Both the position numbers and the translations under genes were made by a program. A model generated the notes under the pieces. It saw only the letters and a program-made list of their open reading frames with translations. It was not told where the DNA came from and searched no databases. Below are positions 45,838 to 49,094 of a DNA stretch of 49,757 nucleotides, one piece after another; position 1 is the stretch's first letter, and each line of letters begins with the position of its first letter. This DNA comes from Candidatus Saccharimonadota bacterium (GTDB taxonomy: Bacteria > Patescibacteriota > Saccharimonadia > Saccharimonadales > Saccharimonadaceae): positions 1 through 49,757 of the forward strand of contig JAEEKR010000030.1 of assembly GCA_016282495.1 (NCBI GenBank), written 5' to 3'.

Positions 45838-45878
45838 GAAGAACCCCCGGGGTATTTGCGGGGGTTTTGGGGTTCTTC
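45838..45878. terminator. Bidirectional terminator between convergent genes, with two alternative stems
   Basis: Outer GAAGAACCCC (45838-45847)/GGGGTTCTTC (45869-45878); competing CCCCC (45844-45848)/GGGGG (45860-45864). Confidence 0.75.
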
Positions 45879-45886
45879 GTTTGGGG

Positions 45887-46768
45887 TTATGCAACGTTTC
45901 GGAGATGAAGCCCCTTTCTTTTGAGCTTCATTGAAATTTCCTTTACGTAGCTTCCCAGTCCAAGCTTGGACAGGTTTTGGGATGAGAGCGAACAGAGCTT
46001 CTCTACAGTGTGAATGCCAACGCTAGCAAGCGCTGAACGGGTTTCTGCTATAAGACCGAGGTCTTTCAGCTCATCCCCTTCCTTATTGACATCAAGTGCA
46101 GATACAGCCTTATTCAGTGAATTCGCTGCGGAACGCAGCGTGGCCTCAAGGACCTTCACTTTCTCAGCCTGGCCTGAAAGCTTGGCGCAGAGGGCGGCCG
46201 CCTTATCGAGCTGTTTTTTCAACTCAGCATTCTGCTCCTGCAGTTTCTGGTTGTCGTAGGAAAGCTTTGAGGCTTCGGCCTTGGCCGCTTCCGCGACAGC
46301 GTCTGAACGCTTGGCCATTTCTACGGCATTGTTGTACTTATGTGCCAACTCATCGTTGTACACTCGTACAAGCTCTTTACTGCTGAGATCCTTGATCAAG
46401 GCTTCGACATCCTCAACAGAGGCGGAGAGCTTCTTGATCTGGCTCTTAAAGGGCGACCTTTTCAGCTTCTCGATGCAAACATGCATCATTGTGGATACCT
46501 CTATAGGCATCACATTGAGCTGAGCAGCGATCTCCTTCTGGGAGAGCCTTTCGCAGCGGAATCCGTAACCCTTGTCAACAAGGTCGATTTCCTCGGGCGT
46601 AAGTGCCAGTGCGAAGATTTTGAAAAGCTCGTCATAGCGACATTCAAGAATGCCGATAGGAGCATCGGCGCCGGTGATAGCCTTAATGAGATTCTGACCC
46701 GCGGTCAGTTTAGTCAGGCCGCAGATATTGGTTTTGGTCTCGAACGTTTTTGAAGTAGTCATTTTCAT
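45887..46768 (-). CDS. Sigma-region-4-like HTH + coiled coil + RNAP alpha-CTD-like (HhH) protein
   Basis: Start trimmed to ATG 46768 after AAGGAG. LTPEEIDLVDKGYGFRCERLSQKEIAAQLNVMPIEVSTMMHVCIEKLKRSPFKSQIKKL resembles sigma70 region 4; GLIAETRSALASVGIHTVEKLCSLSSQNLSKLGLGSYVKEISMKLKRKGLHL resembles alpha-CTD. Confidence 0.75.
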   Translation of the reverse strand: MKMTTSKTFETKTNICGLTKLTAGQNLIKAITGADAPIGILECRYDELFKIFALALTPEEIDLVDKGYGFRCERLSQKEIAAQLNVMPIEVSTMMHVCIEKLKRSPFKSQIKKLSASVEDVEALIKDLSSKELVRVYNDELAHKYNNAVEMAKRSDAVAEAAKAEASKLSYDNQKLQEQNAELKKQLDKAAALCAKLSGQAEKVKVLEATLRSAANSLNKAVSALDVNKEGDELKDLGLIAETRSALASVGIHTVEKLCSLSSQNLSKLGLGSYVKEISMKLKRKGLHLRNVA

Positions 46769-46967
46769 GGCAAATTCTCCTTTAAAAATATTTTTGTTCT
46801 TCATCCAAAGCGCGAATCAATCTAGAAGAAGGGTCACTAGCCCTTTGCTCTTATAAATTTAGATATCAATCGCAGAATAGGACTTTTATTGAGAAACAAA
46901 AACCCTACACTGCGATTGATTTCTACCAAACGAAGTTAACGATCGTGATTCGTTTTATCGAATCATA
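46769..46967 (-). promoter_or_regulatory. Long structured 5' leader of the sigma4/alphaCTD-like gene
   Basis: Promoter TTGACT-N17-TATAAT (46974-47002, minus); hairpin 46946-46965 (7 bp); hairpin 46865-46920 (11 bp perfect plus inner stem). Confidence 0.65.
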
Positions 46968-47077
46968 ACCTCCATTATAGCACACAATTGCAAAAAAGTC
47001 AATAGTAAAATAATAAAAAACATTAAGATGCAACAGAGGCCAACAGATACAAAAATAAAAAAAGTCCCAAAAAACTA

Positions 47078-47106
47078 TTGAAAAATAGTAAAAAATATGC
47101 TATAAT
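47078..47106 (+). promoter_or_regulatory. Promoter of 47151-47992 operon
   Basis: TTGAAA-N17-TATAAT with TGC before -10, in sequence attgaaaaatagtaaaaaatatgctataat; coordinates approximate. Confidence 0.6.
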
Positions 47107-47150: not shown

Positions 47151-47651
47151 ATGAAGAAAATTTTTGAGAATCTGCCAGCCAGTGAGCTGGTAGGTAGCAT
47201 CCACTGTACGCAGGACGTTATCGAGTTATATCAGATGGGGCTTGAACGCAGAAACATGTTTCTGACTATCTGTACCCAGAATGAGCTCGCAAGAAGAGGC
47301 GAATACGATAAGATACACGAAATCCTTATTGGATTTATTGAAGGAGGAAAAATGGAGCTTGGCTCCGATTTTACTCATTTCTTATCCGAAAGTCTGCTTG
47401 AGTTCAGAGATGCCGATCCGTGTCTTGCTCATCTCGGCAAAAAGATCAAAATAGAATCATCACGAAAGACTGAAGGGGTCTTCTCTGTAGATAACCCTGA
47501 AGAAGTATTCGTGGACACTGATGACCTGTCCAGAGCATACAGCTTTCTGGAAAGACTTGCCGAAAATGGCTACGGAGAAGACGACATTTCGAAGATGGTC
47601 CAAAACTTCTTCAATAACAGAAGAATCGTTAAGCTGGAGGGGATTTCGTGA
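47151..47651 (+). CDS. Protein of unknown function (166 aa)
   Basis: Intact ORF, SD AAGGAG, promoter upstream; translationally coupled to next ORF. Confidence 0.7.
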   Translation: MKKIFENLPASELVGSIHCTQDVIELYQMGLERRNMFLTICTQNELARRGEYDKIHEILIGFIEGGKMELGSDFTHFLSESLLEFRDADPCLAHLGKKIKIESSRKTEGVFSVDNPEEVFVDTDDLSRAYSFLERLAENGYGEDDISKMVQNFFNNRRIVKLEGIS

Positions 47652-47992
47652 GCATATCCGAATTTGTCTCCAAATGGAATGCGACTCATAAACGATTTAC
47701 CTTTTCTGTTTGCGAGATTCCAGTACAGGGCCGTCCGGCTAACGTAGAGATTCGCTACCCAGCGGCAAAGTACCAAAAATTTCTTTCTACAGACACATGG
47801 AATGAGCTGAACAACATCGTAGAGATGAGATCACACCATACCATGTATGTAGCAACAAACGAAAAACTCTTTAAACGAGGAATTATCGAAATTAAGATTG
47901 CTTCCTCAAACCACAACTATCAGGATCGTTTCGTCACTAGTGTCCTTATATGGATTGCTGAGCATTTTTTCCCTCAGGACAACGAAGACTAA
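47648..47992 (+). CDS. Protein of unknown function (114 aa), GTG start
   Basis: GTGA overlap with preceding stop; GGAGG SD inside upstream gene; followed by terminator. Confidence 0.65.
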   Translation: MSISEFVSKWNATHKRFTFSVCEIPVQGRPANVEIRYPAAKYQKFLSTDTWNELNNIVEMRSHHTMYVATNEKLFKRGIIEIKIASSNHNYQDRFVTSVLIWIAEHFFPQDNED

Positions 47993-48001
47993 GCCTCCTG
48001 C

Positions 48002-48026
48002 GGCTCACCATTCGGTGAGCCTTTTT
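48002..48026 (+). terminator. Rho-independent terminator
   Basis: GGCTCACC-ATTC-GGTGAGCC-TTTTT. Confidence 0.88.
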
Positions 48027-48068
48027 CATGATATAATTATGACAACAAATTCTAAATAGGAGATATTT

Positions 48069-49094
48069 ATGGTCGACCCTAATTCACCAAGTACGCTTTC
48101 GAGTATAGAGAGAGTTCTGAAGGATATGACACCATACCCAGAGGATTTTAAGGGTACAGTTTACTCAGAAGGTGAAGTTGAAAGTGATATTGGTCGGCTA
48201 AAAAGTTTTAAAAACTCTCCATTTTATAATAAAGCTGAAGAACGTTCCGATGCAAAACTACTCGAGATAACTTTTACTGATATGGTGGAAATGGACGATT
48301 GGTTTAGCGAAGATAAGTCGTACGGCGATGACCCTGATTGGTTGGCACTAACTACTTTTCCTACCTCTGAAATTGACGATGTTTTTAATCATATCGATAT
48401 GATTGGGGTGTTTAGCAATGAACTAACTGGCCACAAAACACTACCTTTTGCAGTCGATTTAACATACAATACCGACCACGATGATATAGCAAAGAAGTTT
48501 AGGTGGAGGCATGTATATGGGAAAAAGAAAGATATTCCAGAGCAAGTTTCAGAATTCGATAGATCCTTATCTCTCAGAAATAGATATGGACTTAAAATAC
48601 CTGGGTTTACTTCTGCTAAGTATTGCGAAGATAAAAATACACTCAACGTCGATGAGAAGCCAATGTTTGAAAAGGGCAGGATTCAGGTTATGCCAAGGTT
48701 TGTCGTCGGATATTCTCAAGATTTAGCAGAGAGGCTTGCAGACAAAGATTCCTTGCCGGAAGATAAATATAATGGGGCCAGATTGTGTGCAAAATGGTGT
48801 GCGTTAATAGAGTTAAAAGAGCAAGCTACTGATATTCGTCAAATGCTAGATAATCTTACCGAGGAAGAAATCAAGTATATGAATCAGGAAGAGTTAGTGG
48901 TCGCGAAAAAAAGCATCATAGCAATGGAACGTTATATTAATAATGCATACAATGAAGCTAAAAAACTGGCTGATACCGATGCTGGTGAAAAAGCCGCCAT
49001 GGAATACGCTATGAATAGAGATACTGTCGTGCAAGCAATCATCAACCAAAGTCAAAATACTTTTCTTGGCAAAGATTGGCAAAGGGTGGCATAA
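48069..49094 (+). CDS. Protein of unknown function (341 aa)
   Basis: Intact ORF, SD AGGAG; internal Asp-rich EIDDVFNHIDMIG ... FAVDLTYN pattern. Confidence 0.72.
   Translation: MVDPNSPSTLSSIERVLKDMTPYPEDFKGTVYSEGEVESDIGRLKSFKNSPFYNKAEERSDAKLLEITFTDMVEMDDWFSEDKSYGDDPDWLALTTFPTSEIDDVFNHIDMIGVFSNELTGHKTLPFAVDLTYNTDHDDIAKKFRWRHVYGKKKDIPEQVSEFDRSLSLRNRYGLKIPGFTSAKYCEDKNTLNVDEKPMFEKGRIQVMPRFVVGYSQDLAERLADKDSLPEDKYNGARLCAKWCALIELKEQATDIRQMLDNLTEEEIKYMNQEELVVAKKSIIAMERYINNAYNEAKKLADTDAGEKAAMEYAMNRDTVVQAIINQSQNTFLGKDWQRVA

Follow-up and report, generated by a model that had tools for sequence, protein, structure and literature searches.

A chimeric sigma-region-4-like and alpha-CTD-like protein with a structured 5' leader and linked small genes in a genus of ultrasmall bacteria

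The described modules closest to the protein considered here are region 4 of sigma70 and the C-terminal domain of the RNA-polymerase alpha subunit (alpha-CTD). We take R584, E585, R588, and Q589 of sigma (E. coli numbering) to be the residues that read the -35 element, and R265 and N268 of alpha to be the UP-element residues. Gene control has hardly been studied in ultrasmall bacteria of the present type, which keep few regulators. T4 AsiA/MotA and Spx work through contacts with sigma region 4 or alpha-CTD. Precedents for factors that act on these two modules have been published (PMC6755090, PMC2801614). Here, we describe a gene that joins relatives of both modules in a single polypeptide, together with its leader and a linked small gene (Table 1). 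The window, that is, the whole stretch of DNA analysed (49,757 nucleotides), makes up a complete contig of a draft genome of 730 kb (42 contigs, ~90% complete), whose small size points to an ultrasmall, probably Saccharibacteria-like, lineage of Patescibacteria.

Table 1 Features of the regulator locus, with positions in the window
Feature	Position	Strand	Basis
GC-rich inverted repeat between glyS and regulator; possible two-way terminator	45838..45879	.	Read from sequence; not in terminator scan listing
Regulator CDS, 293 aa + stop: sigma-R4-like + coiled coil + alpha-CTD-like	45887..46768	-	ORF exact, homologues, purifying selection
Alpha-CTD-like helix-hairpin-helix, residues about 236-290	45899..46063	-	Sequence homology
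Long helix, probable coiled coil, residues 131-225 (~95 residues)	46094..46378	-	AlphaFold prediction; coiled-coil-type matches
Sigma70 region-4-like helix-turn-helix, residues about 44-108	46445..46639	-	Sequence homology
Shine-Dalgarno AAAGGAG, 8 nt 5' of regulator ATG	46777..46783	-	Sequence
CTAAAT-type conserved motif 3' of P2	46857..46862	-	Comparison of members
Leader hairpin P2, conserved with compensatory changes	46860..46925	-	Covariation, folding, hold-out model
TTAAC-type conserved motif 5' of P2 (GTTAAC in window)	46935..46940	-	Comparison of members
Small hairpin P1, GATTCG/CGAATC	46947..46964	-	Pairing in relatives judged by eye only
TG-extended regulator promoter, TTGACT-17-TATAAT; implies a leader of about 200 nt	46974..47002	-	Promoter scan and comparison
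Promoter of divergent gene, TTGAAA-17-TATAAT	47078..47106	+	Promoter scan
Divergent gene for 166 aa (C26); linked small gene of both the window and G475	47151..47651	+	Gene-order comparison

When 393 genomes of the class were searched with the protein, seven homologues with identities of 26-35% emerged, none of them outside the same genus. With a profile, full-length members were recovered from 15 of the 174 genomes of this genus, whose genomes are tiny, at one full-length copy each. Full-length matches were confined to the same genus when 364 genomes of the phylum (302 genera) were searched, and the regulator is absent from about 90% of the species of its genus, the genomes compared being incomplete drafts. 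Other profile matches in the genus fell mostly at ~40-130 or ~244-295, as expected of sigma factors and RpoA, and some of their identities were checked. No relatives of the regulator protein were found in the phage and plasmid collections searched. An in-frame ATG further upstream would give a protein of 305 aa instead of 293 aa. The synonymous third-position GC of the regulator gene (0.57) is the highest of the window genes measured (others 0.24-0.47), and in relatives it also tends to exceed that of the neighbours, including fusA and tuf.

Homology of both ends of the protein to the named modules, beyond chance resemblance, is well supported by profile comparisons. Taken alone, the window protein yields marginal matches (Pfam Sigma70_r4, E = 0.077; NCBIfam sigma70-ECF, 4e-4, and RpoA, 0.052). 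Across the 15 homologues, Pfam Sigma70_r4 was matched in six (best 2e-6) and RNA_pol_A_CTD in five (best 5e-6), and the NCBIfam models for RNAP alpha (RpoA) and sigma70-ECF were matched in five (best 2.4e-7) and six, respectively. When a profile of the 15 homologues was searched against the PDB, alpha CTDs were the top matches (1doq, 7e-8), and RpoD region 4 appeared at 0.0044, ranked below some coiled-coil chains. Furthermore, non-family matches at E <= 1e-8 among the 364 genomes of the phylum lay mostly at the alpha-CTD end (profile ~190-300) in RpoA-length frames, which were matched across the phylum down to 8e-13; the region-4 part (profile ~45-106) was matched in two of these genomes only. 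The family-wide searches thus bear out the sigma-region-4-like N-terminus and the alpha-CTD-like C-terminus that a preliminary description had recognised by eye. The coiled coil of ~100 aa that it placed between them agrees with a long helical link predicted at residues 131-225, probably a coiled coil, in an architecture common to the 15 aligned members.

Both AlphaFold models (single sequence) were of low confidence, so the region-4 and alpha-CTD folds rest on sequence homology and not on the models. A dimer is suggested by the ~95-residue predicted helix and the coiled-coil-type matches, and the regulator probably dimerises through this long coiled coil. Sigma regions 2 and 3 had no Pfam match in the window protein or its homologues, residues 1-43 being too short for region 2. 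The alpha N-terminal assembly domain likewise had no Pfam match, its place being occupied by region 4 and the coiled coil, and HARE-HTH was absent both from the Pfam scan of the window protein and from the families matched by most members. None of the curated models names the sigma-R4/coiled-coil/alpha-CTD architecture, and no sigma-R4/alpha-CTD fusion was found described in open-licence papers.

To compare individual residues, the regulator was aligned with RpoD of its own genome and RpoA of sister genomes, together with an E. coli alpha sequence. The positions of sigma R584, E585, R588, and Q589 are occupied by P, I, S, and T in the window protein, whose -35-reading segment is MPIEVST in place of TRERIRQ and is variable across the family; those of alpha R265 and N268 are occupied by E and S, with no conservation across the family. 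Because the DNA-reading residues are replaced and the recognition helix varies among members, canonical reading of -35 or UP elements is unlikely, and the regulator qualifies as neither sigma factor nor alpha subunit. Of the role sketched in the preliminary description, the union of both modules in one polypeptide stands, and the reading of -35 and UP DNA associated with them is unlikely. Since DNA-contact residues are lost in both domains, DNA binding by the regulator is itself not assured. Purifying selection is evident from dN/dS values of 0.11-0.19 between close pairs, with 0-0.06 for the C-terminal domain.

Folds that are kept while DNA-reading residues are lost would also be expected of an RNA-polymerase mimic or decoy, docking on RNAP or sigma through its region-4 and alpha-CTD surfaces and modulating transcription broadly with no reading of DNA. 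This idea is close to the mimic or bridge of holoenzyme parts put forward in the preliminary description, and the factors acting on sigma region 4 or alpha-CTD provide precedents for it. We consider it unlikely, with a small but real chance of being right, as the absence from about 90% of the species would be odd for a global modulator and the gene is tightly linked to one local small gene. A second possibility is that the protein bridges DNA or has an architectural role: its coiled coil would act as a rod and the DNA-binding domains on either side would hold separate segments together, with no regulation of promoters. The long helix between two nucleic-acid-binding folds would fit, and SMC/Rad50-type coiled-coil models match many members, but these matches cover the coiled coil only, with no ATPase, and the private leader, together with the linked small gene, points to local control that is sensitive to dosage, which leaves bridging distinctly improbable.

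The leader hairpin and the linked small gene both lie outside the span covered by the preliminary description, which missed them. We regard the presence of a conserved structured RNA in the 5' leader of the regulator as well supported. A near-consensus promoter (TTGAC or TTGAT, 17 nt, TATAAT, and a TG extension) precedes 15 of 15 members at about 150-220 nt from the start codon, and 14 of the 15 leaders carry a TTAAC-type motif, a long hairpin (P2), and a CTAAAT-type motif, the hairpin being missing from one member (G089, L065). P2 comprises 17 consensus pairs, 16 of which show changes on both sides, and its covariation score was reached by none of 500 column shuffles. A hold-out model from which the window, G475, and G479 were excluded had exactly these three as its best hits (2e-6, 8e-7, and 1.9e-12, respectively; E-values of the covariance models come from short calibrations). 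At E <= 0.01 and with strict filters on, the full leader model found in 170 genomes of the genus only the 14 regulator leaders, which match by construction, and, at two of these, echoes on the opposite strand.

When promoter-proximal hairpins were compared for 79 consensus promoters in the DNA examined, the regulator accounted for 14 of the 16 longest; the remaining two lie 5' of a 189-aa gene near the G356 regulator and 5' of a 228-aa gene of G315. The latter genome has no regulator, and its 228-aa gene has the same promoter type and a long hairpin leader (L142:1923-2120, minus strand; model E 0.02-0.09). This weak leader-like match before an unrelated gene, with the regulator absent, counts against a purely autogenous circuit. 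The leader had no match in Rfam 15 apart from chance-level miRNA-type hits far below gathering scores, and a search of open-licence papers found nothing on such a leader. Several other readings were dropped. A coding motif (ATGTACWTTAAC, read as M-Y-F/I-N) is disfavoured because neither its start nor its frame is conserved among members, and pairing of GTACNTTAAC with CCTAAATAC to close the hairpin does not covary (both judged by eye). No U-tract follows P2 as a terminator would have, and the Shine-Dalgarno sequence lies outside P2, which speaks against a Shine-Dalgarno trap.

The inverted repeat in the leader might instead act as DNA, as an operator dyad bound by a dimeric regulator, which would suit a dimeric DNA-binding protein and a repeat sitting just behind the gene's own promoter. 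A dyad predicts equal numbers of G.U and A.C mismatches, whereas the sense strand of P2 has 23 G.U against 3 A.C cells (one-sided p = 4e-5), or 18 against 3 once near-copies are removed (p = 7e-4); the cells are not independent, so the p-values are indicative. Moreover, in 13 of 14 leaders the fold of the sense strand is more stable than that of the antisense strand (the window leader folds at -57 kcal/mol, z = -4.9), the arms exceed what an operator needs, and the loop length varies among members. On this evidence an operator is still less probable than bridging, and we favour structure at the RNA level.

Gene order around the 15 members falls into three classes. In C2 (seven members), a gene of ~105 aa is convergent to the regulator; in C5 (six members), a small divergent gene accompanies it, mostly between fusA and tuf; and in C26 (the window and G475), the divergent gene encodes ~160 aa. 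Searches of 170 genomes gave seven strong matches to C2 and six to C5, all adjoining the regulator, plus two weak matches to C2 and, elsewhere, one short weak match to C5. Full-length C26 occurs only in the window and G475, and its N-terminal ~95 aa recurs in many other proteins. The leader and two of the three partner families are thus near-exclusively linked to the regulator gene, and partner class fits the protein tree with the fewest possible changes. The partner proteins scanned matched no Pfam family at E <= 0.05.

Several further observations concern these neighbourhoods. In the 166-aa protein, the N-terminal ~100 aa match part of many genus frames of ~920-1160 aa and other small proteins, and the match in its own genome (G000:C42:28802-29080) lies in a protein that appears VirB6-like by eye. 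At 47648-49094 of the window (plus strand), a pair of genes for 114 and 341 aa, without a Pfam family, recurs in regulator-less sister genomes (G315, G488, G260, G262, and others). In three genomes (L056, L057, and L058), a gene that by eye encodes a UmuC/DinB-like Y-family polymerase adjoins the regulator and small partner.

Patchy presence, fast divergence, swapped small partners, and nearly strict co-occurrence could recall a conflict module of two genes (toxin-antitoxin or defence), with the sigma/alpha-like protein interfering with RNA polymerase and the small gene as its partner, but the separate promoters, the convergent or divergent order, insertion sites common within lineages, and the lack of any matched defence model besides coiled-coil hits make this very improbable, and both it and DNA bridging are less likely than the regulator and mimic readings.

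The explanation that we prefer, and to which we would give an even chance, is that leader, chimeric regulator, and small gene form an accessory unit, a local, dimeric transcription regulator whose own synthesis is controlled by the leader. It builds on the domain homologies, conservation, selection, RNA-level leader structure, and near-exclusive linkage found here; dimerisation, DNA binding, and the targets are inferred, as is any signal to which the leader responds. Two modules derived from RNA polymerase would have been assembled into an accessory transcription regulator, in which the long coiled coil would hold the sigma-R4-like helix-turn-helix and the alpha-CTD-like helix-hairpin-helix apart and probably dimerise the protein. 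The regulator probably binds promoter-region DNA close to RNA polymerase, with a specificity of its own and not that for the ancestral -35 and UP elements. The linked small gene would be its most likely target, possibly along with its own promoter. The structured 5' leader (small hairpin, TTAAC, long hairpin, and CTAAAT) may tune regulator synthesis after initiation and, lying directly behind the promoter, is plausibly a feedback or stability element. A more specific and more tentative version, which we think possible but hardly probable, is that the leader, bound by the regulator or by a cell signal, sets the regulator level and that the regulator redirects RNA polymerase at the lineage-specific partner gene. 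Points against the preferred explanation are that partner genes differ between lineages, that those scanned match no Pfam family, and that one member is without the hairpin.

Made of spare RNA-polymerase modules and accompanied by a leader RNA of its own and a small linked gene, such a regulator would be a concrete and testable unit. Region 4 and alpha-CTD are seen here evolving as free modules with their ancestral DNA-reading residues lost, and the leader is a candidate RNA family absent from Rfam. If the proposal is true, detached RNA-polymerase modules have given rise, within one genus of ultrasmall bacteria, to a transcription factor under RNA control.

Compared with known systems, the regulator resembles sigma70 region 4 (PF04545, e.g., RpoD) in a helix-turn-helix over residues about 44-108 in which the recognition helix is followed by the same KL..SP..(S)QL tail. 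It differs from RpoD in having neither sigma region 2 nor region 3 and in carrying MPIEVST for TRERIRQ. With alpha-CTD (PF03118) it shares helix-hairpin-helix homology across about its last 55 residues, although one or two residues are missing from the alignment near the second hairpin. It differs from the alpha subunit in the missing alpha N-terminal domain and the replaced R265 and N268 positions. In the assembly of its own genome, the alpha-CTD Pfam model finds the regulator alone and no RpoA, probably because of an assembly gap (genome about 90% complete).

Detached region 4 is also fused to another transcription-related domain in a protein of ~344 aa from the same genome (L067; G000:C37:1447-1584), with an N-terminal sigma region 4 and HARE-HTH; similar N-terminal region-4 proteins of 340-370 aa occur in sister genomes. 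Unlike the regulator, this protein keeps TRERVRQ and HARE-HTH and has no alpha-CTD-like end and no such leader in the stretch examined. A protein of ~636 aa (L040, G348) combines two alpha-CTD stretches with region 4 and a weak HARE-HTH match. A 247-aa protein of G270 (L139:1575-2318) has both modules of the regulator in unchanged order, each passing its Pfam cut-off (4.7e-18 for region 4 and 2.4e-5 for alpha-CTD); it differs in its canonical recognition helix TRERIRQ, its short linker, and the lack of the leader. Its contig may be contamination, with neighbours that look Firmicutes-like by eye, and its relatives in phage and plasmid collections cover the region-4 part only, those inspected being ordinary RpoD. 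Finally, the leader differs from autogenous leaders and riboswitches in its lack of an Rfam match and of a terminator U-tract and in a Shine-Dalgarno sequence outside P2, and it resembles them in being a structured 5' leader tied to one gene.
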